Assembly: GCF_014132355.1 (NCBI RefSeq)
Contig: NZ_BLZO01000011.1
Span: 1-64,000 of the forward strand
Reading direction: 5' to 3'
DNA length: 64,000 bases
Source: Okeania sp. KiyG1
Lineage (GTDB): Bacteria > Cyanobacteriota > Cyanobacteriia > Cyanobacteriales > Microcoleaceae
Numbering within the stretch: position 1 is the stretch's first letter; each line of letters starts with the position of its first letter. The translations under genes were made by a program, and so were the position numbers. Positions 11,458 to 63,389 of the stretch are shown one piece after another. The notes below the pieces were generated by a model, which was not told the DNA's origin, did no database searches, and was given only the letters and a program-made list of their open reading frames with translations.

Positions 11458-13260
11458 ATGGATAAACTCAAGCAATATTGGGTAGCTGAAGAATTAGAGC
11501 GCTCTCTTGGCGATCCAGAAAATCCAGACAGTACAATGTCTTTCAAGAGAGTCATTGAAATTGATGAGAGTGAAGAATTTCCACATCAGGAAGTTGAATG
11601 GCTCTATAATTGGAAGCTACAACATTACTATATCCCTGTTAATTGTGGGGGAGAGTTTACTTCTTTTGAAGAGTTTGTGGCCTTTGTTAGAGTTTTGTGT
11701 AGGCGCGACCAAACAATTGGAATTGCTTTTACTACTATGTTTTGGTCTTTTCTTACCTGGATGGCAGGTACGGAGGAACAAAAGCAAAAGTTAGCAACTT
11801 ATATTAAAGATGAACATGGGACAATGTGCCTTGGTTACTCAGAGAAGGAACATGGTGCTGACCTCATTGGTGGAGATTTGACCGCAACAAAAGTTCCTGG
11901 AGGTTATCTACTGAATGGGGAAAAGTGGCCGATAAATCGTGCGACTATTTCTGGAGTATCTTATATATTAGCAAAGACTGACCAAGAAGATGGGGGTGCT
12001 AGGGGGCTGTCTTTGTTTATGGTAGAAAAAAGCCGACTAGACCCAGATAATTACTACAATTTACCGAAAATTCTGACTCACGGAATTCGAGCTTCTGATA
12101 TGAGTGGGATAGGTTTTAAGGATTGCTTTGTTCCCGAAGATATGTTGATAAAAGGGGAAGGAGCAGGTCTAGAAGTAGCTTTGAAAGGGTTTCAAATTAC
12201 TCGAACTTTATGTGCAGCTTTTTCTCATGGAGCAGCAGATACAGCTTTAAGAACTACGTTAAAATTTGCTATTAATCGGGTTATTTACAATAAAACAGTT
12301 TTTGACATTCCTCAACCTAGGAAAATTCTGGTAGATGCTTTTTTAGACCTATTAATTTGTGATTGTGAAACTATTGGAGCAGCAAGAGGATTTCATGTTA
12401 TTCCTCAGCAATTTAGTGTTTGGGCAGCAGTGGTGAAATATTTTGTTACTGTTCAGTTAGAAACAATGATTAATAATATTTCATCAGTGTTAGGTTCTCG
12501 CTTTTATATGCGGGAAGAACATGACTGGGGAATATTCCAAAAAGTGCTGAGAGATAATTCAATTATTAGTGTATTTGATGGCAGTACAACTGTTAATTTG
12601 CATGCTCTAATTTTACAGTTCCGTCAGTTAACAAAAAATCGTTCTCGACGGAATTCTGCTAAGATGGAAGGAATTAAATCTCGTCTAGAAATCATCTTTT
12701 CCTTGGATAAACAATTGCCTACTTTTGAACCAGAAAAACTGGAAATTGTAGGGCGGGGTGCTGATGATGCTTTACAAGGATTAGAAATTGCGTTAGAACA
12801 GTTAAAAGATTTAAAAGCTGCTAATTTAAACACTAAAGTTTTAGAGCAAATTACTGCACTGACTGAGTGTGTTATTGCAGAAGTAAACGCTCACGATGAA
12901 CAAATTGCTAATTCAGCATTTGAGTTTGGTCACGACCAGTCACCAGAATTATTTGAAATAGCGAAAAATTACTGTGCTTTACATGCAGCAGCATCTTGTG
13001 TGCATATGTGGATTTATAATCGCGAAATATTGGGTGAATTTTTTGCAGATGGTGAGTGGTTGGTACTGTGTTTAAATCGTTTACTACAACCTTTTGGGCA
13101 TTCACAAAAAGTAGACCAATTATATTGGGAAAAAGTTACTCAAGAAATGCTCAAACTTTATAACGAAAATAAAGTATTTTCTATTGTTCCTTTTCAACTA
13201 GCACAAACTCAAAAACAGGAGAATAAAATAAATGCAAGTTCAGAACTCCAGCACGCTTAA
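11458..13260 (+). CDS. Acyl-CoA dehydrogenase family flavoprotein
   Basis: The 600-residue protein has the acyl-CoA dehydrogenase fold: helical N-terminal domain, the FAD/substrate segment CLGYSEKEHGADL, a middle beta domain, and a C-terminal helical domain with SVFDGSTTVNLHA where the family normally has the DGTTEI-like segment. It is longer than the usual 380-400 residues. The extra part is a helical C-terminal extension from about residue 400. Between a FAAL and an ACP it most likely introduces an alpha,beta double bond in the carrier-bound acyl chain. It starts at ATG 11458 with AGGAG eight bases upstream. It overlaps the ACP gene by 29 bases. Confidence 0.85.
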   Translation: MDKLKQYWVAEELERSLGDPENPDSTMSFKRVIEIDESEEFPHQEVEWLYNWKLQHYYIPVNCGGEFTSFEEFVAFVRVLCRRDQTIGIAFTTMFWSFLTWMAGTEEQKQKLATYIKDEHGTMCLGYSEKEHGADLIGGDLTATKVPGGYLLNGEKWPINRATISGVSYILAKTDQEDGGARGLSLFMVEKSRLDPDNYYNLPKILTHGIRASDMSGIGFKDCFVPEDMLIKGEGAGLEVALKGFQITRTLCAAFSHGAADTALRTTLKFAINRVIYNKTVFDIPQPRKILVDAFLDLLICDCETIGAARGFHVIPQQFSVWAAVVKYFVTVQLETMINNISSVLGSRFYMREEHDWGIFQKVLRDNSIISVFDGSTTVNLHALILQFRQLTKNRSRRNSAKMEGIKSRLEIIFSLDKQLPTFEPEKLEIVGRGADDALQGLEIALEQLKDLKAANLNTKVLEQITALTECVIAEVNAHDEQIANSAFEFGHDQSPELFEIAKNYCALHAAASCVHMWIYNREILGEFFADGEWLVLCLNRLLQPFGHSQKVDQLYWEKVTQEMLKLYNENKVFSIVPFQLAQTQKQENKINASSELQHA

Positions 13261-13624
13261 TACTGAAGCAAAAACAGAAAGTTCCCCTTTAGAAATCTTA
13301 CAAAAGTGGATTGCTGAAAAGTTAGCAGAACAATTGTCTGTTGACAAAAGCACTATCGAATTTACTGAACCTTTAACTCGTTATGGGTTGGACTCAATTG
13401 ATGCCGTAACTCTAGTTGGTGAGCTGGAAGATGAACTAGATTTGGAGTTACCTTCTACTTTATTTTGGGATTATCCAACTATTGAAAAATCTGCTGAATA
13501 TTTAGTTTCTGAGTTTGATATTTCTGAGGCATTAGAAAATCTGGAAAGTTCTGAAGAAAAAACAGAAGAAGCAGAAAAACCTGCTGAAAAATCTGGTAAA
13601 GGTTGGGGTAGTTTCTGGAAGTAA
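13232..13624 (+). CDS. Acyl carrier protein of the FAAL cassette
   Basis: This 130-residue carrier protein has one PP-binding domain (about 20-95). The phosphopantetheine attachment serine is Ser55 in YGLDSIDAV. An acidic tail rich in Glu and Lys ends in GWGSFWK. It is longer than the housekeeping AcpP (about 80 residues), so it is probably dedicated to this pathway. The ATG at 13232 lies inside the 3' end of the dehydrogenase gene, with CAGGAG upstream, which indicates translational coupling. Confidence 0.92.
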   Translation: MQVQNSSTLNTEAKTESSPLEILQKWIAEKLAEQLSVDKSTIEFTEPLTRYGLDSIDAVTLVGELEDELDLELPSTLFWDYPTIEKSAEYLVSEFDISEALENLESSEEKTEEAEKPAEKSGKGWGSFWK

Positions 13625-13847
13625 GTGGTTCATATTTTAGCATTCAGCTATCAGCGGTCAGCACTTCCCTGCGGGATGCTACGCAAACAGTAATAATACT
13701 CTGATGTGCGAGGACAGGGTTTAACTAGCTGTTAGCTTTTAGCAGCTCTGGTCTAAACCCCTGGTTTATAGAAACCGGAAGGTTTAGGTGTGGTAAGATT
13801 CTCTTTTTAAACGTTTACTGCTGAGTGCTGCGAATGTTATTTAGCGA

Positions 13848-13866
13848 GGGCGAATGCCATTCGCCC
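13848..13866. repeat. Dispersed palindrome, copy 2 (between ACP and MBOAT)
   Basis: GGGCGAATGCCATTCGCCC, the same inverted repeat as at 11414 and 39429, in the 314-base gap between the carrier protein and MBOAT genes. The rest of the gap holds a fragment of the GGATGCTACGCAAACAG repeat and no gene. Confidence 0.8.
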
Positions 13867-13938
13867 CTACAAAATATTTCATATATCGACAATTTATTGC
13901 GATAGGTTGCTATAAAGTACAGAGGAGGAAATAGTTAA

Positions 13939-15396
13939 TTGAATTTTTCTGATTTTTCCTTCTGGTGGGTGCTGCTGATTTTTAGCGTGCCTTTCCTCAC
14001 CATCCGCGCTCTAGGGAAAAGTTTCAACTTCTGGCAAGATTATTTTGATACCATCGGCTTGATGGTACTATCATTAACATTATTTTTAAATGCTAGTTTC
14101 AAAAGTTTTGCCGTATTTATATTCGAGGTGATTTTCAACTACATAATGGTGCGACTAATGTTGCAAAGACGTGGTTGGGAGTCAAGGGCGATCGCTACAT
14201 TTTTAATAGTATTTGATGTAGCGGTATTAGCATACTTTAAATATCTCACCTTTTTTGTAGAAGATGTAGTAGGTTTAGTAGTAGGAATTCCGGATAATTG
14301 GCAACAAAGTTTTCCTTTACCTGTATATAAGACTATTCCACCAGGTATTTCTTTTTATACTTTTCAGATGGTGGCATTTGTTGTAGATTCTTTTACAGCT
14401 AAAAAGAAAAAGCCAATTAATTTCATAGATTACGTCAACTTTATCGCATTTTTCCCTCAAATTGTAGCAGGTCCAATCGAAAGACGCAAACAATTATTAC
14501 CCCAGTTAGAATCTTTTAAATTCAAGTTTACTGTAGAAAACTTTGAATTAGGTTTGCGATGGTTATCTCTAGGTTTATTTATGAAGTTTGTTCTAGCAGA
14601 TAACATTAGTCCATATATAGACCTACAGCAAGCAACAAATGCTTTATTAGTTTGGTTTCATGCCTTTTTGTTTACTTTAAGAATATATTTTGACTTTGCT
14701 GGTTACAGCTTTATGGCTGTTGGTATCGCTAGATTTGTGGGAGTTAAACTAGAATTAAATTTTCTGGCACCCTACACTTCTGTTAGTATCCAAGAATTTT
14801 GGCGACGTTGGCACATTACTCTGAGTAACTGGTTTAGGGACTATGTTTTTATTCCACTAATGGGTGCAAATAAAAAGTGGGCACCATTTTATTTATTTAT
14901 AACATTTACTCTTTCAGGCTTTTGGCACGGGGCAGCCTGGAATTTTATTTTATGGGGAGCTTACCACGGGGCATTATTATTGGCGATCAGATATGCTGGG
15001 AGACCTTTTCAGAGGTTTGTGGGCAGATGGACTTCTAGAACTGATTTAGTTTCCTGGGCCTTGACGTTTATGTCAGTGACTCTAGGCTGTTTATTTTTTA
15101 TGGAAACTAATATTAGTAGGTTGGGTACTAAGTTACTAACTTTAGTTACACCTGGAGCTTATTCAATTTCAGGAGCGATCGATGCTTTTAGCTCTTATAG
15201 CATCAATGAGGGTTGGGCTTTAATTTTTACTTTAACTGTGGCCATAGGGGCATTATTTTTAGAACATTTGGCAGTTTGGCAGCAGCGAGATGAGTATGAA
15301 TTGTTGTTATCTCCTTGGATATCTAGGGGTCTGCTAGGTTTAACTATTTTACTGGGGGCAACTATTCCTTCTGAATTTATTTACTTTGAGTTTTAA
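13939..15396 (+). CDS. MBOAT-family membrane O-acyltransferase (AlgI/DltB-like), cassette copy
   Basis: The 485-residue polytopic protein has about ten hydrophobic helices and the MBOAT signature. FWRRWHITLSNWFRDYVFIP lies near residue 287, and the presumed catalytic His is in SGFWHGAAWNF near 333. The family transfers acyl groups from a carrier to hydroxyls of a secreted polymer or lipid. The start is TTG at 13939, chosen because a strong GAGGAGG site lies just upstream. Lying after FAAL, dehydrogenase and ACP, it is the likely acceptor of the activated chain. That would be a long or unsaturated acyl group rather than acetate; this is an inference. Confidence 0.9.
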   Translation: MNFSDFSFWWVLLIFSVPFLTIRALGKSFNFWQDYFDTIGLMVLSLTLFLNASFKSFAVFIFEVIFNYIMVRLMLQRRGWESRAIATFLIVFDVAVLAYFKYLTFFVEDVVGLVVGIPDNWQQSFPLPVYKTIPPGISFYTFQMVAFVVDSFTAKKKKPINFIDYVNFIAFFPQIVAGPIERRKQLLPQLESFKFKFTVENFELGLRWLSLGLFMKFVLADNISPYIDLQQATNALLVWFHAFLFTLRIYFDFAGYSFMAVGIARFVGVKLELNFLAPYTSVSIQEFWRRWHITLSNWFRDYVFIPLMGANKKWAPFYLFITFTLSGFWHGAAWNFILWGAYHGALLLAIRYAGRPFQRFVGRWTSRTDLVSWALTFMSVTLGCLFFMETNISRLGTKLLTLVTPGAYSISGAIDAFSSYSINEGWALIFTLTVAIGALFLEHLAVWQQRDEYELLLSPWISRGLLGLTILLGATIPSEFIYFEF

Positions 15397-50547: not shown

Positions 50548-50958
50548 ATGAACAATTTATTTGATAATTTGGCAAATCAAGATAGTGGTATTAGTGACAA
50601 TTATGGTTTACTTAATAACGATGATTTATCCTCAACCCCGGATGATATAAATCAAGACTTAAACCAGAATTTGACCGATAGTTTCCATCAGCAACAACAA
50701 TTCCACTATCAAAATTCAAGTATGGGTTTAGGGGAAAATCCAGACTTTGCTAAAAATCACTTTTCATCCGATAATTTGGCAAATCAAGATAGTGGTATTA
50801 GTGACAACTCTGGTTTACTTAATAACGACGACTTATCCTCAAGTTCGGATGACATAAATCAAGATTTAAAGCAGAATTTGACCGATGGTTTCCATCAACA
50901 ACAACAGTTCGACTATCAAAATTTCAATGTTCAACAATTAATAATGAATAATAAATAA
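50548..50958 (+). pseudogene. Truncated first copy of the 69-residue-repeat protein
   Basis: This 136-residue ORF starts MNNLFDNLANQ like the full gene at 51150 and carries just under two 69-residue repeats. It then runs directly into the duplicated intergenic DNA (tail VQQLIMNNK) and stops. It arose by a tandem duplication of about 602 bases whose junction fell inside the second repeat. It lacks the C-terminal domain, so it is probably non-functional, although it could be translated. Confidence 0.8.
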
Positions 50959-51149
50959 TTACTTTTCCTTGAAAATAAGAGGATTGACTAAAAGGAAATT
51001 TTTTCTTTTTCTCCTTTAAAGGAGAGGCTTTAAACCTTAATTATTAGGTAAAAGCTTTTCTCTGTCTCAGGTTCATTATCAATCTCTGTCTTAACCAACT
51101 CTTTCTTTGCTATAAATATAACTATTCTATTTATTTAGTAAGTCATACT

Positions 51150-52487
51150 ATGAACAATTTATTTGATAATTTGGCAAATCAAGATAGCAGTATTAGTGAT
51201 AATTCTGGTTTACTTAATAACGATGACTTATCCTCAACTCTGGATGAGATAAATCAAGATTTAAACCAGAATTTGACTGATAGTTTCCATCAGCAACAGC
51301 AGTTCGACTATCAAAATTTCAATATGGGTTTAGAGGAAAATCCAGACTTTGCTCAAAATCACTTTTCATCCGATAATTTGGCAAATCAAGATAGTGGTAT
51401 TAGTGACAACTCTGGTTTACTTAATAACGATGACTTATCCTCAACTCTGGATGAGATAAATCAAGATTTAAACCAGAATTTGACTGATAGTTTCCATCAG
51501 CAACAGCAGTTCGACTATCAAAATTTCAATATGGGTTTAGAGGAAAATCCAGACTTTGCTCAAAATCACTTTTCATCCGATAATTTGGCAAATCAAGATA
51601 GTGGTATTAGTGACAACTCTGGTTTACTTAATAACGATGACTTATCCTCAACTCTGGATGAGATAAATCAAGATTTAAACCAGAATTTGACTGATAGTTT
51701 CCATCAGCAACAGCAGTTCGACTATCAAAATTTCAATATGGGTTTAGAGGAAAATCCAGACTTTGCTCAAAATCACTTTTCATCCGATAATTTGGCAAAT
51801 CAAGATAGTGGTATTAGTGACAACTCTGGTTTACTTAATAACGACGACTTATCCTCAACTCTGGATGAGATAAATCAAGATTTAAACCAGAATTTGACTG
51901 ATAGTTTCCATCAGCAACAGCAGTTCGACTATCAAAATTTCAATATGGGTTTAGAGGAAAATCCAGACTTTGCTCAAAATCACTTTTCATCCGATAATTT
52001 CCATCAAAAGCAGCAATTTGAACATCAAGATTTTGGTACAGATTTTTCTGGAGTAAATTCTGAATCTCCATTGCCAGAAATTTCTAACTTTCAGCAAGAG
52101 GAAAATAATTTAAGTTTAAGTTCTCATACTTTTGAAAGTCACAATATTGGTTTATCTAGTCATCGTTTGGAATTTAATTCATCCTCCGATCAATATCCTT
52201 ACGCAACTATAGATAATTCAGGTGATATTTACTTACATACAGCTAAATATCATTATCATAAGGCAGGTTATTTAAAAGGTCGTGCAGTTTATAATTCTGG
52301 TTATAATTATCTAGGATATGCAGGTACAGATGGTAAAGTTTATGATAATCATAATCATGCTGTTGGTTGGGTAGATAATAATGGCAATGTCTATAATGAA
52401 GGAGGAATTCAGGTTTCCCATACTAATAAAGGAGTGGTTGGTGCTGCTGCCTATTTATTATGTTCTTATTATGGAGGAGCAAATTAA
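51150..52487 (+). CDS. Protein with four 69-residue Asn/Gln/Asp-rich repeats and a C-terminal GxVY domain
   Basis: The 445-residue protein has no signal peptide or helix spanning the membrane. Residues 6-281 are four repeats rich in Asn, Asp, Gln and Ser, each with SGLLNNDDLSS and FHQQQQFDYQNFN. A low-complexity linker follows. The C-terminal ~95 residues have four to five short beta repeats, each with G-x-(I/V)-Y: GDIYLHT, GRAVYNSG, GKVYDN and GNVYNEG. This resembles a beta-flower or YD-type small domain. The product ends CSYYGGAN. I do not recognise a family function. Prion-like Gln/Asn content suggests self-association. Confidence 0.75.
   Translation: MNNLFDNLANQDSSISDNSGLLNNDDLSSTLDEINQDLNQNLTDSFHQQQQFDYQNFNMGLEENPDFAQNHFSSDNLANQDSGISDNSGLLNNDDLSSTLDEINQDLNQNLTDSFHQQQQFDYQNFNMGLEENPDFAQNHFSSDNLANQDSGISDNSGLLNNDDLSSTLDEINQDLNQNLTDSFHQQQQFDYQNFNMGLEENPDFAQNHFSSDNLANQDSGISDNSGLLNNDDLSSTLDEINQDLNQNLTDSFHQQQQFDYQNFNMGLEENPDFAQNHFSSDNFHQKQQFEHQDFGTDFSGVNSESPLPEISNFQQEENNLSLSSHTFESHNIGLSSHRLEFNSSSDQYPYATIDNSGDIYLHTAKYHYHKAGYLKGRAVYNSGYNYLGYAGTDGKVYDNHNHAVGWVDNNGNVYNEGGIQVSHTNKGVVGAAAYLLCSYYGGAN
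51165..51992 (+). repeat. Four 207-base coding repeats
   Basis: Units start at 51165, 51372, 51579 and 51786, each exactly 207 bases (69 codons) and almost identical in DNA. Two more partial units lie in the truncated copy at 50563 and 50770. Near identity including third positions means recent expansion or frequent conversion. Confidence 0.95.
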
Positions 52488-53851: not shown

Positions 53852-56800
53852 ATGGCTATACCTTTACTTCCATTTGCTGTTAGTGCCGGACCTTCTCTAT
53901 GGCATAGTTGCGTTAATGCTTTTAATTGTGCCTCTGGTAGAAATATGCAAAAAGATTTAGAAAGGCAACGACTTGCTCATCAAAAAGAATCACAAGAAAG
54001 ACAAATTGTTCATCAAAAAGAATTACAAGAAAAACAAAGAGTGGCTCAACTTGAGATTGAATATATGCGTACTATGTCTCAGATTAAGTTGCAGCAAAAT
54101 AATCAACAATTTCAACTAGATTTACAACAAAATAATCAAGCATTTCAGGCAGGAATAGAATATCAACGTCTTGCTGCTCAAGCAAAGTCACAACGAAATA
54201 ATCAAGCATTTCAAAGAGAGTTAGAAACTCAACGCTTTGCTCATCAAAAAGAATTACAAGAAAAACAAATATCTGCACAGTTTGACCTGGAAACTTATCG
54301 TCAAGAATTTCAAGCTAAAATAGTCGAATATCAATGCCAAGAAAATCGGAAACTTCAAGAATTTATCAAAGCAGTGGATATGCAAATAGCCAAAAGTAAT
54401 CAAGAATTTCAAGCATGGCTATTTCAACAACAAAAACAACTGCAAATTGAACTAGCTCAATATAACCGAGAAACCCAATTCCTAAACGCAGCATATCAAC
54501 GAGAAGTTAGTCTAGAAATTAAAGAATTAGATAACTGGCCACTCAAAATTTATCCCTGGCAAATTCTCGAATATCATCAAGGTAGAAATCCTATTCCGGT
54601 ACAAATAGTTCTTGCACCTCCAGAAATAGACTATGACCACTTTGAACACCTAAATAAAACTTCCACCTCCGCATTTCCTAAAGTAGAAAAACGTCTTTCT
54701 CAACACTTACGAAATTTCCTGGAAAAATACTATCCTCTGGAAAATGAACGACGACCTACAGAATTAATAGACCGTGCTTGGGATAGTAACCGTTTTGCTG
54801 GAGGTAGCGCAGTTAAAGCCATATTTAGTCGCTTAAAATCTGAACCTATACTATTAATAGAATCAGAAGTAGATGGAGACCTGATTAATATTCAAGTTGC
54901 CTATTGGAGTGGCGGACAAGCAATTTCTCCTTTCTACAAAACTATGATTCGCCATCTACATTATCCGAAAATTCTCTACGAATTTGCTATTCAACGTGCC
55001 TTACATTGGGAAACGGATGTTAAACAGAAACTCTTGGCAAAAGGCAAAACCGAACAAGAGATAAATCAAATATGCAGTGGAGATAATCCTTTAAATTTGA
55101 ACATTTATAGAAAAAATCAAGAATTAGCAGCAGATGGAATAGAAATCGAATGTCACTACAAAACTAATAGCGAAGACTTTGGCAAATTATCAGCTTTGTT
55201 AGGAGCATATCATAATATTATTGCTGCTCTATTTACCGACATTCATTATTTAATTCACACTAACTTATCGCCCAAGTTGCCAGAATTATTGCCAGAATTA
55301 GAAACAGAATTTTCCGTAGATCGCCGTTTGGCAGATGACCTGTTTCAAATGGTAGTTGAAAGTTATATTGGCAGTCTCCGAGCTATGGAAAAAGACCGCT
55401 CAGAATTAGTACCAGAATTTGCTGCGGATATTGCTTTTGGTTTGACTGGTTTATCTAATCCTACTTTTGCAGAAAAAATGTTGGATTTTTCCCTGGAGTC
55501 TTGGCTAAATTCCCGTTATCTTTCTGTGGAGAATGGCAGAGAAAAATTTGACATAGTGGCTGAAAATTTACTGCCTCTAGATCGGGAATTTGTTATTAAG
55601 GTTAATCGCTGTTTGGTTGGTTTGGCTAAGGAGAAAAAATTGAGTGTAATAAATTCTTGTTACCAGCGGGCAATTAAGAATTTTAATCAGAAAAAATATC
55701 AGGAGGCAATTATTGATTTTAGCTACGTTATAAATTTGAATCCTCAATTTGCCGATGGTTATTATCGGCGAGGTTTGACTTATATTCAGTTGGAAAAATA
55801 CCGAGAGGCAGTTGATGATTTGACTCAGGTTATTAGGTTAGATGCTAGTCACTCTCAGGCATATAATTGTCGGGGTTATGCCTACTTTAAATTAGGAGAA
55901 TATCAGCAGGCGGTTGATGATTATAACCGAGCCGTAAATTTAGGTTTGACTGAGGCGGTGAAAAATCGAGATATTGCTCTGGGTGTTTGGCAGGAAATTA
56001 AACGTAGGGCGGAGGAAAAAATTAGGTGGGAAGAAAGGGAAAGACAAGAAAGAGAGGCACAGGAAAAAAGGGAGCGGGAGTCGAAAGGGGAAATCTTTAC
56101 TTTTGAAGTAGTTACTGTCAACAACTCTGGCAAAATTATTAATCCTACCCAGGGAAGTGCCAGGCAAAAAATTGAAGACTTCGGTAATGGGATTAAATTG
56201 GAAATGGTTTATATTCCTGGGGGAAGTTTTCTCATGGGGTCGCCGGAAAATGAGCCGGAAAGAGAAAGTTATGAAAGTGAGAATTATTTTGAGGAGGATA
56301 TATATGTGAACAGAGAAAGTTATGAAAGTGAGAATTATTTTGAGGAGGATATATATGTGAACTTTGATTGTCTCGAAGAGGAGGTGGAATGTGGGTATCA
56401 AGAAAGTCCGCAACATCAAGTAACTCTCCAACCTTTTTATATGAGCAAATATCCCATTACCCAAAACCAGTATCAAGCCATTATGGGAAATAATCCTTCA
56501 TCTTTTAAAGGAGGAAGTCGCCCCGTAGAAAATGTGAACTGGCATAACGCCGTAGAGTTTTGTCGAAAGCTATCTGAGAAAACTGGGAAAATTTACACCC
56601 TCCCCAGTGAGAGTCAGTGGGAATATGCCTGTCGCGCCGGGACAACTACTCCTTTCTATTTTGGAGAAACTATAACGTCTGAGTTAGTTAACTATGAGGG
56701 GAAAATAGGACAAACAACCGATGTGGGAAGTTTTCCACCCAATGCCTTTGGTTTATACGATATGCATGGCAATGTCTGGGAATGGTGTCTGGATGTTTGG

Positions 56801-57013
56801 CACAATAATTATAATGGAGCGCCTACCGATGGAAGTGCTTGGGAAACTGGGGGAAATAGTAATAGAAGATTGCTCCGTGGTGGTAGCTGGAACAACAATT
56901 CTAGGGGTTGCCGGAGTGCCGGGCGTAACTACAATAATGGCGACCTCTTCTACAATGTTAGGGGTTTTCGGATTGTCTCGTCTTCCCCGGTGGTTTCTGC
57001 CTTTCGTTCCTAG
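53852..57013 (+). CDS. Large coiled-coil / TPR / FGE-sulfatase-domain protein, probable DGR target
   Basis: This 1053-residue protein has a short hydrophobic start, a Gln-rich coiled coil (about 30-210), an uncharacterised middle domain (about 220-590) and two to three TPRs (about 605-710). A charged helix follows, then a formylglycine-generating-enzyme fold (about 790-1050) with KLEMVYIPGGSFLMGSPE, PVENVNWHNAVEFC, YTLPSESQWEYACRAGT and GLYDMHGNVWEW. The C-terminus RGGSWNNNSRGCRSAGR to VRGFRIV is the C-type-lectin-like end that DGRs vary. It is more likely a binding protein than a sulfatase activator. An exact 51-base duplication lies at 56261-56362. GTGs and stop are normal; the start is ATG 53852. 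Confidence 0.88.
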   Translation: MAIPLLPFAVSAGPSLWHSCVNAFNCASGRNMQKDLERQRLAHQKESQERQIVHQKELQEKQRVAQLEIEYMRTMSQIKLQQNNQQFQLDLQQNNQAFQAGIEYQRLAAQAKSQRNNQAFQRELETQRFAHQKELQEKQISAQFDLETYRQEFQAKIVEYQCQENRKLQEFIKAVDMQIAKSNQEFQAWLFQQQKQLQIELAQYNRETQFLNAAYQREVSLEIKELDNWPLKIYPWQILEYHQGRNPIPVQIVLAPPEIDYDHFEHLNKTSTSAFPKVEKRLSQHLRNFLEKYYPLENERRPTELIDRAWDSNRFAGGSAVKAIFSRLKSEPILLIESEVDGDLINIQVAYWSGGQAISPFYKTMIRHLHYPKILYEFAIQRALHWETDVKQKLLAKGKTEQEINQICSGDNPLNLNIYRKNQELAADGIEIECHYKTNSEDFGKLSALLGAYHNIIAALFTDIHYLIHTNLSPKLPELLPELETEFSVDRRLADDLFQMVVESYIGSLRAMEKDRSELVPEFAADIAFGLTGLSNPTFAEKMLDFSLESWLNSRYLSVENGREKFDIVAENLLPLDREFVIKVNRCLVGLAKEKKLSVINSCYQRAIKNFNQKKYQEAIIDFSYVINLNPQFADGYYRRGLTYIQLEKYREAVDDLTQVIRLDASHSQAYNCRGYAYFKLGEYQQAVDDYNRAVNLGLTEAVKNRDIALGVWQEIKRRAEEKIRWEERERQEREAQEKRERESKGEIFTFEVVTVNNSGKIINPTQGSARQKIEDFGNGIKLEMVYIPGGSFLMGSPENEPERESYESENYFEEDIYVNRESYESENYFEEDIYVNFDCLEEEVECGYQESPQHQVTLQPFYMSKYPITQNQYQAIMGNNPSSFKGGSRPVENVNWHNAVEFCRKLSEKTGKIYTLPSESQWEYACRAGTTTPFYFGETITSELVNYEGKIGQTTDVGSFPPNAFGLYDMHGNVWEWCLDVWHNNYNGAPTDGSAWETGGNSNRRLLRGGSWNNNSRGCRSAGRNYNNGDLFYNVRGFRIVSSSPVVSAFRS
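56261..56362 (+). repeat. Exact tandem duplication of 17 codons inside the FGE domain
   Basis: 56261-56311 and 56312-56362 both encode RESYESENYFEEDIYVN. It adds an acidic insertion near the start of the FGE fold and keeps frame. Confidence 0.95.
56871..56978 (+). other. Candidate DGR variable region (VR)
   Basis: The last ~35 codons before the short tail encode LRGGSWNNNSRGCRSAGR, then a run rich in Asn/Tyr/Gly/Asp/Leu/Phe codons, then RGFRIV. In cyanobacterial FGE-type DGR targets this is where adenine-directed mutagenesis acts. AAC/AAT codons at several sites are consistent with an adenine-rich template. No template repeat with this sequence was found in the window. Confidence 0.6.
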
Positions 57014-58010
57014 AGTTCTTCCCCTCTTTTCCCCTTTTGTATCTTTCCTAAATCCATCGGTGCATCCGTGGCCAAATCCTTGTGTGCAGTTTCTGTCTTT
57101 CGTTCCTAGCACTCATCATTAAATCAACCAGATTCAGACAGCTTAGTTAAAGTAGGTTGAATTGAGCGCTCACAGGGATTATGCCACGGATGTACGGATT
57201 AATTTGTTAGTCAAAGTGGATTGGGTTGAGGAACGTTAGCGGAGCTTATCCGTTAGGATAAACCCCACATTACCTATATATATAGATACAAACTTTTGAC
57301 TAATAGATGAAATTTTTGACATTCGGTAAACCTCAAAAATGAAACCTAACACCAGCCATCTATATATATAGATATAAACTTTGTTACTCCCACATAGCAC
57401 AAAACGGTAAATCTATCAAACTGCCATAACAGGAAGGGAGAAAAATTAGTCATTCATGGCAGAAAAAATCAACAAAATTTCCTCTTCAAACAACGATATA
57501 ATCAGTATTTCCAGCTTCAAAATCTAATTAAGCAATAACTCTCCCTTGGATCTTTCATTCTTTCAGACTATCACAGAACCGAACCAAAGAGCTGAAAATA
57601 TTGAAACCTCGTTAGCCAAATCAGACAAAATTTCCCCTGATTTGTCATCAACCCCTGACAATATTTAAAATTTTCAAACTAAAAAGCCCAAACCTATAAC
57701 CAAAACTTAGGAGTATAGCGATCGCCCCCGAAACAACCATCAAAATCAAACATTCTCTGAAGCACTCAGAAAAAAAGGTGCGTCGAAAAAAGCGATCGCT
57801 TCCTAGACAACCAGGCAATAATTATTCTCCGAAGCACTCAAAAAAGCATCGCTTCCCAGACAACCATCAAGATCAAACATTCTCTGAAGCTCTACCAAAA
57901 AACGGTGCATTGAAAAAAGCGATCGCTTGACAATCCAAAAAATTGCTACAATTGCTAATAACCCCTGATTCAAACTGGCAATAATAAATTTCTCTAGAGG
58001 TTACAATTAA
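57014..58010. repeat. Intergenic between DGR target and small-gene operon, with HIP1-containing repeats
   Basis: A near-repeat of TTTCG-TTCCTAG (56995-57013) occurs at 57090-57109. CTATATATATAGATA-type direct repeats lie at about 57276 and 57358. Three imperfect ~70-base units carrying HIP1 (GCGATCGC) or near-HIP1 sites and CATTCTCTGAAGC lie at 57718-57925. No template repeat or reverse transcriptase was found by eye. Confidence 0.6.
57718..57925. repeat. Three imperfect ~70-base tandem units with HIP1 sites
   Basis: Units begin near GCGATCGC at 57718 and 57792, and with a one-base-deleted GCATCGC near 57847, each followed by AGACAACCA-like and TCTGAAGC segments. A further GCGATCGC at about 57920 ends the array. 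Located 90-300 bases before the small-gene/avd operon. Confidence 0.7.
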
Positions 58011-58202
58011 TTGTCTAAAAGAAAGTTTCGTAAATCTGTCGAAAGTATTCGGCAACAGATTAACAAACACCATCAAAAAATAGCAGATGAACAAGAGAAA
58101 GCTATTCCGGATGAAGGCTTAATTTCATATTGGCAAAAAGAAATTTCCGGATTAGAAAAAAGTTTAGCCAGAGCAGAAAAAAGATTGAGGCGCGGTAAAT
58201 GA
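58011..58202 (+). CDS. Small basic helical protein, DGR-operon gene 1
   Basis: The 63-residue highly charged protein is predicted all-helical (FRKSVESIRQQINKHHQKIADEQEK, then a second helix ending RLRRGK). The start TTG 58011 is supported by AGAGG about ten bases upstream. It overlaps the next gene by ATGA (58199-58202), so the two are translationally coupled. I do not recognise the family. The position before avd and after an FGE-type target suggests a DGR accessory role; this is inference only. Confidence 0.6.
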   Translation: MSKRKFRKSVESIRQQINKHHQKIADEQEKAIPDEGLISYWQKEISGLEKSLARAEKRLRRGK

Positions 58203-58441
58203 TTTATAAACTCGAAAAGCCATTAAATGTTAACTCAACCCTATCAGTATTATTGGCTGAATTAGGAGAAGAATGCGAGACAGTTCTATTTTTACTAAAT
58301 CAGCTACAACTGCCAAATCTAACAGATGAACAAAAAGGTGATATTTTAGCAGAACTAACTGGGTCTGTTTGTCATTTGCACGTTCATACAGAAAATTTAC
58401 CAGATTTAATTCAAGACGAAATTGAACAATTGCCAGATTAA
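58199..58441 (+). CDS. Small acidic helical protein, DGR-operon gene 2
   Basis: The 80-residue acidic protein (LLAELGEECETVLFLLNQLQLP, then DEQKGDILAELTGSVCHLHVHTENLPDLIQDEIEQLPD) starts at ATG 58199, overlapping the previous stop. It is predicted all-helical, with no known motif. Basic and acidic partners encoded back to back could form a complex. Family unknown. Confidence 0.6.
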   Translation: MIYKLEKPLNVNSTLSVLLAELGEECETVLFLLNQLQLPNLTDEQKGDILAELTGSVCHLHVHTENLPDLIQDEIEQLPD

Positions 58442-58502
58442 TCAAAATTAATTAGCAAGATTTGAGGCTGACAGGGTTGACGAAATCCGACTAAAAGTTG
58501 AA

Positions 58503-58811
58503 ATGAACGAACTATCGATTATCCAAAAAACTTACGACTTAATCATCTGGTATGTACCAATAATCAACAGACTACCCAAGACTCATAAATACACAATCGG
58601 CGATCGAATAATTAACGGTTTATACAACTTTCTAGAATCTCTAATTATTGCCAAATATGCCTCAGAAAAAATCAACCTACTAAAATCTCTCAATCCCAAA
58701 CTAGACATAATTCGCTACCAAACCAGAATCCTCTTAGACTTCAAACTCATCAACAACAAACGTTACGAATATATCAGCCAACTAATAAACGAATTGACAC
58801 TCGCCCGTTAA
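58503..58811 (+). CDS. avd: DGR accessory protein Avd-like four-helix bundle, 3' end replaced by an IS end
   Basis: The 102-residue protein matches the layout of Avd, the positively charged pentameric four-helix bundle that binds the DGR reverse transcriptase: IQKTYDLIIWYVPIINRLPKTHKYTIGDRIINGLYNFLESLIIAK, then KLDIIRYQTRILLDFKLINNKRYEYISQLINEL. The last residues TLAR and the stop are encoded by the right end of the TnpB element (from 58794). Joining the sequence at 60351 would give a 109-residue protein ending NNTDRGKERFS. No reverse transcriptase gene follows. ATG 58503 starts the conserved core. Confidence 0.8.
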   Translation: MNELSIIQKTYDLIIWYVPIINRLPKTHKYTIGDRIINGLYNFLESLIIAKYASEKINLLKSLNPKLDIIRYQTRILLDFKLINNKRYEYISQLINELTLAR

Positions 58812-58850
58812 ATCAAAGATTATAACGGGAGATTCTTGTTTCAAACTCTT
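58795..58850 (-). ncRNA. 3' end of the TnpB guide (omega) RNA
   Basis: Immediately after the tnpB stop, a stem of TCCCGTTA and TAACGGGC, loop ATAATCTTTGATT, then GAGTGTCAA at the element edge. In TnpB systems this is the RNA scaffold end, with the flanking host DNA acting as guide. Here the guide would be avd 3' sequence read on the minus strand. The 5' limit inside tnpB cannot be placed. Confidence 0.5.
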
Positions 58851-60063
58851 AACTAGGTAACAAATCAAACAAGCTGAGTTGTACCCCCGCCAGACCGTCT
58901 CTACAAGCATTTTGGTTAACGGTATGCCCTACCGCTATTAGTCCTCTATTTCTAATTACTTTTGCAGCAGCTACATCGCGATTTATTTGATAACCGCAGT
59001 TGCTACAATTATGCTTTCTATCAGACAATTTCTTTTTCTGTCTATGACCACATCTAGGACATTCTTGAGAAGTATGATTTTTATCAACTTTTGCATAATA
59101 TTTACCTCGTTTCCAACAAACAAAAGGTAATATTTCGTTAATAAACTGACCTATTCCACTATCTAAAGATTGCTTCCTGATAATACCTCTAGACCAAGAA
59201 TTAAAGTTAATATCTTCTACAAAAATATTATCAGCTAAATTGCAAAGTTGATGAGCTAATTTGAAATGCCAATCACGTCTAGTATTAGCTATTTTTTCAT
59301 GTAGTTTAGCTATTCTGTTTTGATATTTGAACCAATTATTTGACCTAATTGTTTTCTTCTTAAGTCTTCGTTGCAGCAATTTAAGCTCGCGTAGTTGACT
59401 TAACAAAAACTTAGGAGATTTAATTAATTGTCCTGTGGAAGTAGCTACAAAATTTTCTATACCTGCATCTACACCTAATGAGACTTTGCCTACTGGATTA
59501 TCTGGCACTGATTCTGAGGAAGTAAAAGTAATCATCAAATAATAACCACTAGCTTTTTTAACTATCCTAGCTTGTTTAGCTGTCATAGCTTCGGGATAAG
59601 GTCTACTTTTTCTAATTTTAATCCAACCAAGTTGAGGTAATTTAACTTTAGTATAACCTAAACAATTTTTAAGCATTGCAGGAAAAACAAAGCTTCTTAA
59701 CTTTTTCTTAAATCTAGGAAAGCCTTTACCCAAACTTTTCATCTTAGAAAATGCTTGATCTAAATTCTTTAAAGTTTGTTGTAATACTTGAGCATTAACT
59801 GACTTTAATTTAGGATTAGTTTTCTTAGCTATGGTTAGACTTTTTGCTTGATTATTATAACTAGGATAAGGAGTGTCAGCAGGTATAATATATTCAGAAA
59901 TAATTGAACAACTATTGATTGGCGATTTTCTTGAACTTAACCAGTCTTTACGCTCTCTTAAAGCATAATTATACACACTTTTACATACATCAAGAATCTG
60001 ATTAATTTCTGCTTCTTGTTGTTGATTTGGTCTAAGTTTGTACTGATAAGTTAAAGCTATCAC
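58849..60063 (-). CDS. tnpB: RNA-guided endonuclease TnpB (IS200/IS605-type OrfB)
   Basis: From GTG 60063 (MIALTYQYKLRPNQQQE) the product has 404 residues, the usual TnpB length. The TTG 45 bases upstream is possible but outside the family start. RuvC residues are Asp199 (GVDAGIENF), Glu283 (FVEDINF) and Asp363 (NRDVAAAK). The zinc finger has CPRCGH and CSNCGY. All catalytic residues are present, so it is probably an active RNA-guided DNA nuclease that maintains the element by cutting empty sites. Start and frame are unbroken, unlike the neighbouring host genes. Confidence 0.95.
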   Translation of the reverse strand: MIALTYQYKLRPNQQQEAEINQILDVCKSVYNYALRERKDWLSSRKSPINSCSIISEYIIPADTPYPSYNNQAKSLTIAKKTNPKLKSVNAQVLQQTLKNLDQAFSKMKSLGKGFPRFKKKLRSFVFPAMLKNCLGYTKVKLPQLGWIKIRKSRPYPEAMTAKQARIVKKASGYYLMITFTSSESVPDNPVGKVSLGVDAGIENFVATSTGQLIKSPKFLLSQLRELKLLQRRLKKKTIRSNNWFKYQNRIAKLHEKIANTRRDWHFKLAHQLCNLADNIFVEDINFNSWSRGIIRKQSLDSGIGQFINEILPFVCWKRGKYYAKVDKNHTSQECPRCGHRQKKKLSDRKHNCSNCGYQINRDVAAAKVIRNRGLIAVGHTVNQNACRDGLAGVQLSLFDLLPS

Positions 60064-60124
60064 TTGACAATATTTTATATTTCTAGATATACTAATAGTG
60101 TAACGCAAATTGTATATACAGTCA

Positions 60125-60295
60125 ATGGTTAGGAAAAAAAATTTTGTAGTAAGATTAACTGATGATGAAAAAGAAAGACTAGAGTATTATGCAGAAATTA
60201 TGCAAGTATCAATGTCTGAAATAATTCAAGATTATTGCAAAAGCTTGCCAAAACGACCTCAAGCTCAATTAAAGGATTCGCTACCGCTCAATTAA
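60125..60295 (+). CDS. Ribbon-helix-helix DNA-binding protein inside the TnpB element
   Basis: This 56-residue protein starts at ATG 60125 (MVRKKNFVVRLTDDEKERLE). The first beta strand with alternating basic residues, then two helices with SMSEIIQDYCKSL, match CopG/Arc-type RHH regulators. It is transcribed away from tnpB. The two starts are only about 60 bases apart, so it could repress both genes through a shared promoter. It lies inside the direct repeats that bound the element. A TTG at 60110 is an alternative start. Confidence 0.7.
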   Translation: MVRKKNFVVRLTDDEKERLEYYAEIMQVSMSEIIQDYCKSLPKRPQAQLKDSLPLN

Positions 60296-60427
60296 TTGCT
60301 GGTTTAAATTCATCTCACCGTTAAATCAAAGATTATAATGGGAGTCCTCTTTAAATAACACTGATAGAGGGAAGGAAAGGTTTAGTTAATTGATATTCTA
60401 TATGTTTCAGTAGTTCAAAACTCAAAA

Positions 60428-62184
60428 ATGGCAATTGATTTTAGAAATATAAACACAGTCTGGGCATCAATTTTAGTAGAAACATTACAATATCTAGGAT
60501 TAACTACAGCAATTATTAGCCCTGGTTCCCGTTCCACACCTTTAACATTTGCCTTTGCTACTCACCCAAAAATCGAAACTATTCCTATTCTTGATGAACG
60601 TTCTGCATCATTTTTTGCTCTAGGAATAGCAAGAAAAAATTATCAACCTGTGGTAATAGTCTGTACATCTGGTACTGCTGCTGCCAATTTTTATCCTGCC
60701 ATAATAGAGGCAAAAGAAAGTCGTATCCCACTATTAGTTTTAACGGCAGATAGACCTCCAGAATTACGAAATTGTCATGCAGGTCAAACAATAGATCAAG
60801 TCAAATTATATGGCAGTTATCCCAACTGGCAAGTTGAATTAAGTTTGCCTTCTATAGAACTAAAAATACTTGAATATTTAAGACAAACAATTATTCATGG
60901 TTGGAGAAAAACAACTTTACCGACACCTGGACCTGTGCATTTTAATATTCCTTTTCGAGACCCTTTACCTCCCATACTCCAACCAGAAGTTATTTCCTTA
61001 AAAGCACAATTCCCCCAAAACTTTTTTGCTACAGTACAGCCAATTTTCACAACAGAATTTTTGCCGAATTTTGACTTAACATTAGATTTAAAAAATCAAC
61101 TTCAATCTGGCGAAGGCATAATTATTGCAGGTTTAGCACAACCCAAAAATCCTCAAAAATATTGTCAAGCGATCGCTCAAATTTCTCAAATTCTCAAGTT
61201 CCCAGTTTTAGCTGAAGGTTTATCTCCTCTGAGAAACTATTCTCGGTTAAATCCCTATTTGATTAGTACTTATGATTTAATTTTAAGAAATCAGGAAATA
61301 GCACAAAAACTTATTCCTAAAATAGTTTTACAAATCGGCGAATTACCAACAAGTAAACAATTAAGAATTTGGCTAGAAACAACTAACCCTCATAGATTAA
61401 TCATCGATCAAAGCGAGGATAATTTTGACCCGCTTCATGGAAAGACAAATCATTTACGACTTTCAGTAGAACAACTAGCTAAAATTTTTACTCCTAAACT
61501 TTTCCATAGTAACTCCGATGGCAATTACTTAAGTTTGTGGTGCAATGCCGAAGTAAAAGTTAGAGAGGCGATTGACAAAAAAATGGCAGCAATCAATCAA
61601 ATATTTGAACCTAAAATACCTTGGTTAATTTCTCAAATATTACCCCAAGGTACACCAATATTTATTGCTAATAGTATGCCAGTCAGAGATGTAGAATTTT
61701 TCTGGGTTCCTAATAATTCCCAAATCAAGCCATTTTTCAATCGAGGCGCAAATGGAATAGACGGTACTTTATCAACTGCTTTAGGTATTGCTCATCGCCA
61801 ACAAAGCAGTATTTTATTAACAGGAGATTTAGCACTTTTACATGATACGAATGGTTTTTACTAAGAAATAAATTAGTCGGTCATTTAACTATTATTTTGA
61901 TTAATAATCAGGGAGGTGGAATTTTTGAAATGCTACCAATAGCTAAATTTGAACCACCTTTTACAGAATTTTTTGCTACTCCCCAAGATATTAATTTTGC
62001 CCAGCTATGTAATACTTATGATGTAGAACATCAGAATATATATTCTTGGCAGCAATTACAAAAACTTTTAAAGACTCTACCTAGTAGTGGAATAAGAGTT
62101 TTAGAATTACAAACAAACCGCCAACTAGATGCTAGATGGCGGTTAGATAATTTAGATAAATTTGCAGCAGATTTATTGCTATAG
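60428..62184 (+). pseudogene. menD: 2-Succinyl-5-enolpyruvyl-6-hydroxy-3-cyclohexene-1-carboxylate synthase, single frame break
   Basis: The ThDP enzyme joins isochorismate and 2-oxoglutarate in phylloquinone synthesis. From ATG 60428 the frame is open for 478 codons: SPGSRSTPL, DERSASFFALG with the ThDP Glu, CTSGTAAANFYPA, RGANGIDG and the GDLALLHDTNGF metal site. It then stops at 61864 after the T5 run 61855-61859. With one T more it reads LLRNKLVGHLTIILINNQGG and continues to 62184, 585 residues in all, the normal length. It lies 78 bases after the TnpB element. Confidence 0.88.
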
Positions 62185-62477: not shown

Positions 62478-63389
62478 GAGACTGTTTGTAAAACAAATCT
62501 TAAGAACAGCCAGATTTTTTAGCACTAAGCCTTCGTAAGATTAATCTAATCATTGCAGTGTAAATCAGAGCTTCACTAATCTCTGGTAGTTGTTCATAGT
62601 CGAGAACTAAACGTCGGTTGTGAAGTAGCCATGCAAAAGTTCTCTCTACTACCCATCGCCTGGGCAAGACTTCAAATTCTTTACTGTTGCGCTTGATTAT
62701 TTCCACTTGTGCTGAAATCAGCTGTGCGATCGCTAGCTGAAATTTCGGTCCACTATAACCAGAGTCAGCCCAAATTAATTCTATGCGAGAAATATTATCA
62801 GCCTGTTCCATGACCAATGCCATAGCTCCCAAGCGTTCTCCCATATTTGCTTCACGCTCCTTGTACCCCTAGTAGTAACCCTTGAGTATCAACCAATATA
62901 TGACGCTTACGGCCTTTTACTTTTTTGCCGCCATCATAGCCATATACCTCCCCCTTTTTGCCGTTGTTTTTACCGATTGAGAATCGACAACTGCTGCAGT
63001 AGGTTCTCGGTGTCGTGTTTCAAGTATTCTTGTTTCTCGCCGTAGAGTATGATTTATTTCCTCCCAAACACCATGTCGTTGCCATTTACGTACATTCAGT
63101 TGATACAGTTTGCCAAGGTGGTAGATCATGGGGCAAAGAACGCCAATGACAACCAGAATAAAGGATATAGAAGATACCATTAACTACTTCTGTGAGATTA
63201 GCGTTTGGTTTTGGCCCTCGTTTTTGAGGTTTGGGTAGCAAAGGTTCTAGTAGTTCCCACTCGCGATCGCTTAGGTCACTGGCATAAGATTTTCGGGACA
63301 TTGATTTGACACTTATCATTGATTTTTTTATTTTCCTACCTTAAATACCTCTTCATGGCCATCTTTAGCTTTTTTTTACAAACAGTCTC
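62478..63389 (-). mobile_element. IS5-family insertion sequence, 912 bases
   Basis: Perfect 16-base terminal inverted repeats, GAGACTGTTTGTAAAA at 62478 and its complement ending at 63389, flanked by direct TTA repeats (62475-62477 and 63390-63392). A single leftward transposase gene fills it. Sharp ends and an exact target duplication imply a recent insertion. Confidence 0.92.
62500..63319 (-). pseudogene. IS5-family DDE transposase, several single-base breaks
   Basis: The transposase reads DLSDREWELLEPLLP and CHWRSLPHDLPPWQTV in the first frame (63319 down to 63086). YQLNVRKWQRHGVWEEI and [12 protein letters not shown] (first catalytic Asp) follow in the second, and ELIWADSGYSGP (second Asp) and LPRRWVVERTFAWLLHNRRL (Glu) in the third (62844 down to 62500). 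One break is a G5 run on the coding strand (C5 at 62950-62954) that needs a sixth base to give [10 protein letters not shown]. The others are near 63105 and 62865. The element looks complete, so it may be intact in the organism. Confidence 0.85.

Follow-up and report, generated by a model that had tools for sequence, protein, structure and literature searches.

The DNA analysed here, a stretch of 64,000 nt from contig NZ_BLZO01000011.1 of Okeania sp. KiyG1 (GCF_014132355.1; genome G000) and hereafter called the window, holds what are very probably the remains of a cyanobacterial diversity-generating retroelement (DGR) that lost its reverse transcriptase (RT) and template by deletion. In the course of events that we propose, an ancestral retroelement with the order target, template, avd, RT, template would have rewritten, by adenine mutagenesis, the variable region (VR) in the C-lectin fold of its target protein. 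A deletion from codon 97 of avd to the left end of a TnpB element would have taken the intervening stretch, which in a sister species comprises the RT, a template (TRb) and an open reading frame (ORF) of 182 aa, and a second change would have removed the core of another template behind the target gene. The sole other DGR found in the assembly, on contig C43, has an RT split by an insertion sequence (IS) and a template that does not fit. As the target gene has kept an open frame, the VR most likely serves as a fixed binding surface by now; we further infer continued use of the target, and the lack of a working RT in every cell of the strain. The anatomy of the locus, its synteny with relatives, the missing stretch, the IS insertion and the template mismatch, each read directly from the assemblies, carry this reading.

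The assembly amounts to 10.98 Mb in 198 contigs and is 92.36% complete. It was compared within a same-genus set of six genomes (G000 to G005, the window's own included) and a family set of 62, many of which are drafts or metagenome-assembled genomes, where some frameshifts may be sequence errors.

Results

The former DGR target gene (53852..57013, plus strand) is an open ORF of 1053 aa, in keeping with the FGE/C-lectin target that an earlier note, made from the letters of the window, had proposed there. An N-terminal part without family match is followed by TPRs and by a C-terminal FGE/C-lectin domain (residues 844-1042; Pfam FGE-sulfatase, 161.8 bits). Solved structures matching the protein include PvdO (121 bits), variable protein 1 of Treponema denticola (2y3c, 92 bits), which we take to be a DGR target, and FGE enzymes. 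Both the domain and the VR were placed by sequence rather than by structure prediction, and on this footing the first component of a DGR, a target gene with a 3' VR in a C-lectin fold, is present. Target sequence, whole or truncated, stands beside menD in all five other genomes of the genus. In the FGE part of the window gene, positions 56261-56362 form a perfect 51-base tandem duplication, the residues of which are missing from the orthologous proteins of G002 and G005.

The decisive comparison is with the sister species, G002, whose RT (contig C2) is the same as that in Okeania sp. SIO2C9 NZ_JAAHGO010000010.1. On the menD side its locus reads target, TRa, avd, RT, TRb, the remnant of a second avd start, the 182-aa ORF, a TnpB element and menD, with the two templates at L052 10195-10301 (TRa) and 12477-12583 (TRb), the remnant at 12776-12851 and the TnpB element at about 13494-15138. 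The RT is uninterrupted over 353 aa and finds its best structure match in 8ub7 (182 bits; other listed RTs reach at most 67), which is presumably a DGR RT. The VR adjacent to these genes differs from TRa at 10 of 30 adenine sites and at none of the 77 others. A further VR, on contig C24 of the same genome, differs from TRb at 14 of 30 adenines and again at 0/77 other sites, best read as service in trans by TRb.

Both sister templates align without gaps with the VR of the window (56872..56978, plus strand), so that the candidate of the earlier note, 56871-56978, was right to the base or nearly so. Differences from TRb fall at 8 of 30 adenine sites and 7 of 77 other sites; four non-adenine differences are accounted for by neither TRa nor TRb. 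Read in the frame of the window target, all 30 TRb adenines lie at first or second codon positions. Immediately downstream, a tail resembling the initiation-of-mutagenic-homing signal (56980..57021, plus strand) is 90% identical over 42 bases to the tail that follows TRb in the sister.

No RT and no template repeat were found in the window, apart from the remnant of a template tail; the absence of either up to menD had been claimed before and is borne out to that extent. The remnant (57089..57147, plus strand) joins the end of a template tail to a piece of its downstream flank (94% over 33 bases and 93% over 27 bases) and sits on that side of the target on which G002 carries TRa.

The window does retain avd (58503..58811, plus strand, 102 aa), native up to about 58793. 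It matches NCBIfam DivGenRetAVD with 113 bits (cut-off 80), a model that is silent in 14/14 control genomes, and Pfam bAvd with 53.8 bits (cut-off 40). Family search thus upholds the Avd-like gene of the earlier note as a genuine Avd; the competing assignment to a generic four-helix protein was rejected, PF05635 scoring 17.4 bits, under its cut-off of 33.8. A PDB sequence search with the protein gave no match up to E 1. The accessory component of a DGR is accordingly present, with its C-terminal end trimmed: it stops at position 95 of the 104 of the DivGenRetAVD profile, whereas the sister protein reaches 104/104.

The junctions read at this end explain the trimming. Window positions 58502-58793 align with the sister avd (90%), and 58791-58908 (72%) and 58910-62169 (95%) with the TnpB element and menD, while the sister's 2.2 kb between avd and the TnpB element have no counterpart. 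The deletion junction hence lies at 58793..58794 (plus strand), the point that RT, TRb and the 182-aa ORF occupy in the sister, and the avd frame runs on into the IS200/IS605-type element (58794..60363, minus strand; edges inferred from G002 and from an empty site in G004; TnpB ORF at 58849-60108, minus strand), from which its last codons and stop derive. Two statements of the earlier note fail here. It had avd ending about 38 bases before menD once the element was removed, but the 38 bases separate avd from the end of the TnpB ORF, and the last codons and stop lie inside the element; and it had held that the element did not push an RT away, but it is precisely at the left end of this element that the deletion ends. 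An irrelevance of the TnpB element to the loss was likewise rejected, the avd frame ending within it. Because a 260-base part of the element matches elsewhere in G000, and also in G001 (98%) and G005 (93%), recombination between element copies is a plausible way in which the deletion may have been made.

That the window lost this stretch, rather than never having had it, is polarised by the 182-aa ORF, which is kept in four of the five other genomes of the genus (G001, G002, G004 and G005) and absent from the window and from G003, where the target is truncated; its absence in the window is therefore likelier a loss than ancestral. Together with the RT and template at the orthologous locus of G002, this marks the window locus as a degraded one.

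We then turned to the rest of the genome, where the earlier note had suggested that an RT and a template be sought. G000 contains 36 RVT_1 matches. The full sister RT (E 1e-30) matches at C43 only, in two pieces, and a search with the DGR RT piece of C43 gave 14 places, of which C43 itself scores 524 bits and the 13 others no more than 37.9. A DGR-type RT is thus absent at the window locus, and the one in the genome is split by an IS: the RT matches overlap by five bases, TTTTA stands on both sides and the ends form 15-base inverted repeats (junctions read by eye), and both RT pieces are free of stops. The C43 DGR is laid out on the minus strand as FGE target, avd, RT and template. As its template and its own VR differ at 14 of 33 adenines and at only 2/74 other sites, it may well have worked until recently. 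Against the window VR, the same template mismatches at 12/33 adenines and at 18/74 other sites. Since a DGR rewrites adenines, the C43 template in its present form did not write the window VR, and with the split RT we rejected the C43 DGR, as it now stands, as a provider for the window. The C43 avd (L029 7651-8076) is lengthened behind residue 35 by eight to nine codons inserted in frame (PTPNPSQEG) and still scores 117 bits, over the cut-off; it and the window avd are the two genes of G000 that pass, a third match falling short at 21.2 bits.

A search with a 23-base template signature at up to two mismatches matched, within G000, only C43 and the window VR, and in this assembly, which is 92% complete, no template was found that agrees with the window VR at every non-adenine site; by the same token the window VR is not linked to any same-genome template as a remote target would be. 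Of the two fates considered by the earlier note, a satellite served by a distant RT or a relic, the relic is favoured by the same-genus RT and TRb where the window has its gap, while the satellite finds no support in this assembly, the distant RT being split and its template a misfit. Across the genus the signature occurs without mismatch twice in G002 and once on C43 of G000; VRs that carry it at one or two mismatches lie in G000 (one), G002 (two) and G005 (one), and it was not found in G001, G003 and G004.

Other relatives show further stages of loss. Within the genus, Avd was found in two of six genomes; two have a DGR RT, uninterrupted in one of them. In G005 the locus consists of the target, a template that breaks off after about 17 bases, a four-helix gene, a pair of small genes and about 35 bases of an avd start. 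The four-helix gene (L120 4827-5188, contig C61), which directly follows the cut template in two overlapping ORFs, is of the 23S rRNA intervening-sequence type (PF05635, 79.5 bits) and not an Avd. G004 and G001 hold target sequence, the 182-aa ORF and menD, without avd or RT. RT copies were also counted beyond the genus from the sister-RT search at E 1e-30, weaker copies falling outside the counts. The genus together with group g11 (13 genomes in all; to go by identical match statistics, g11 includes the Trichodesmium, Hydrocoleum and two further Okeania records) has eight RT copies in seven genomes, one of the eight, that of G002, being uninterrupted. The remaining 49 family genomes have eight copies in eight genomes, seven of them uninterrupted to at least residue 341, with that of G025 covering residues 1-156.

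We also asked how many VR-like segments carry an adenine bias, using hypergeometric P values that take sites as independent and are uncorrected for the 62 segments; segments less than 64/107 identical were dropped beforehand, which removed at least two places in G000 (C93 and C46). In the four RT-less genomes 18 of 43 segments are biased at P <0.001 (G001 1/4, G003 4/10, G004 7/15, G005 6/14). At most five non-adenine differences from TRa or TRb occur in 6/43, and one G003 segment has none. Runs of FGE genes spaced by about 1 kb in four species, L177 (G005:C212), L179 (G004:C66), L178 (G002:C24) and L181 (G003:C112), served as control: 13/18 of their segments lack the bias at this threshold and 5/18 show it, with at least 14 non-adenine differences, so the control is not clean. 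The VR of contig C42 in G000 is identical over 107 bases to that of C55 in G004, which would suit a VR frozen between diverged species. Of the nine 50-base blocks that begin 250 bases upstream of the VR start and end 200 bases downstream of it, however, eight are identical at 49-50 positions and one at 45, as against 42 to 48 further upstream, and a recent transfer or conversion tract would be as good an explanation as a frozen VR. A second near-identical pair, G003:C35 and G005:C44, agrees at 104/107 positions, with flanks of 93% and 99%.

Between target and avd, the two coupled small genes of the earlier note are both open (58011..58202 and 58199..58441, plus strand) and have no family assignment; the first is conserved in G005. 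A role of the pair in the DGR machinery was rejected, relatives of the second occurring in 20 of the 62 family genomes as against 15 for the RT, and none being found in the RT-bearing G002. Further along the window, menD is split (61790-61950) by one T missing from a homopolymer (five against the sister's six), which may be a true frameshift or an error of sequencing. At 62500-63319, three minus-strand ORFs that adjoin or overlap one another look like a broken transposase. Upstream of the target, 50563-52000 holds seven copies of a 207-base tandem repeat within two neighbouring ORFs.

Discussion

Several points weigh against a deletion relic and have to be set beside the synteny. The adenine bias of the window VR is by itself weak (P 0.024 with TRb as reference; 0.005 over the sites at which TRa equals TRb), and of the 15 positions where it departs from TRb, 5 are third codon positions. 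The history also requires no fewer than two rearrangements. The target of the G002 locus itself (L052 7060-10044) is broken by an in-frame stop near the N-terminus into two ORFs of one frame, so that full function may be lacking even there. DGR RTs were recognised by their likeness to those of the sister and C43 rather than by classing each of the 36 RVT_1 matches, and at 92% completeness an RT or template may be missing from the assembly. The avd copies are conserved, with a ratio of nonsynonymous to synonymous substitution (dN/dS) of about 0.1, though this mostly reflects the time before the loss. Finally, the window avd is probably not the orthologue of the sister's, as synonymous divergence (dS) is 0.42 between the two against 0.20 over 600 codons of the target, and the flank upstream of the window gene (58465-58502) has its match in two avd remnants, that of G005 and the one that follows TRb in G002. 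The ancestor may thus have held two avd genes, of which the window may have kept the other one. Such an ancestry leaves the conclusion standing: RT and template are gone from the window locus.

The 92% completeness of the assembly leaves room for an active satellite, whose target would still be served in trans from sequence missing from the assembly, or by sibling cells with an intact RT and template. Other observations also speak for it: the C24 VR of the sister, matching TRb at 77/77 non-adenine sites with 14/30 adenines changed, is best read as targeted in trans; a Thiohalocapsa population harbours intact and transposon-broken RT variants together (PMC10907252); and metagenomes show hypervariability at no fewer than 11 of the 18 VR loci of Trichodesmium erythraeum (PMC8867640). 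The one DGR-type RT found here is IS-split, however, the C43 template is a misfit, the signature search of G000 gave no further template, and the four non-adenine differences that fit neither sister template suggest drift or a template now lost. We regard an active satellite as improbable. Equally doubtful is that the orphan avd was kept for work elsewhere, as a trans helper of the C43 DGR or in an RT-free role. Its open frame, its strong family match despite the trimmed end and the low dN/dS would suit such a function, as would the insert in C43's own avd, though that protein passes the cut-off. But the C43 RT is itself broken, G005 has reduced the matching avd to about its first 35 bases, making it dispensable there, and an independent function of Avd is here a supposition. 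That the target is an ordinary FGE paralogue, never a DGR target, beside a chance four-helix neighbour is scarcely credible: FGE paralogues abound in the genus and the bias test alone is unspecific, as the tandem genes illustrate, yet the G002 orthologue adjoins an RT and templates with a VR differing from TRa at adenines only, the VR tail and template remnants of the window match DGR templates, and avd lies well over its cut-off.

Deletion of RT and template from a once complete DGR thus remains our preferred explanation, and the locus offers a well-resolved case of DGR dismantling: the same site has RT and templates in one species, and other species have lost them to varying degrees, bearing scars that reveal the course of the loss. 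It is useful for asking how DGR repertoires become fixed. If variants are kept under selection after the RT is lost, the clade would allow a direct test of whether DGRs are short-lived sources of variants, the best of which then become fixed, as has been suggested before for cyanobacteria (PMC7517822). More tentatively, DGR repertoires in Okeania and Trichodesmium might be locked in after diversification, through repeated independent RT loss (by IS insertion, deletion, frameshift or stop) with receptors and sometimes avd kept and the variants inherited as a fixed, innate-like set. We consider this possible but rather unlikely; if true, RT loss would be favoured once good variants exist, rather than reflect mere decay. 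The hypervariable loci of T. erythraeum (PMC8867640) speak against it, although the RT is interrupted in the T. erythraeum record compared here.

Both remote targets and DGR loci degraded by an IS have been published before; the present instance was not found in print, a literature search on retroelement and Okeania returning no paper in the library searched. Earlier work describes remote variable proteins in cyanobacteria, an RT-less remnant in Nostoc PCC 7120 and transposases of the IS200/IS605 type close to variable proteins (PMC7517822), two DGR RTs with remote targets in T. erythraeum IMS101 (PMC8867640), and a metagenome survey that remote targets escape (PMC8144416).

Among known systems, the closest are the cyanobacterial FGE/C-lectin DGRs of Okeania sp. 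SIO2C9, Trichodesmium, Dolichospermum, Pleurocapsa and Amazonocrinis (L124-L127, L129 and L130), which share the order target, avd and RT, with a template-like repeat immediately behind the RT (weak in L127, 69/107), and whose avd products are 59-90% identical to that of the window. RT and template are deleted in the window, whereas two Trichodesmium records have the RT present but interrupted. In remote or remnant variable proteins such as all3226 of Nostoc PCC 7120 (PMC7517822), VR homology occurs without a nearby RT, as in the window; the window differs in also keeping avd and template scars, and in having an orthologous RT locus that polarises the loss. In Thiohalocapsa PB-PSB1 (PMC10907252), RTs are transposon-interrupted or replaced, templates have been lost and some targets are served in trans. 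That system belongs to another phylum, and the dismantling described here is seen in a comparison between species rather than in read data.

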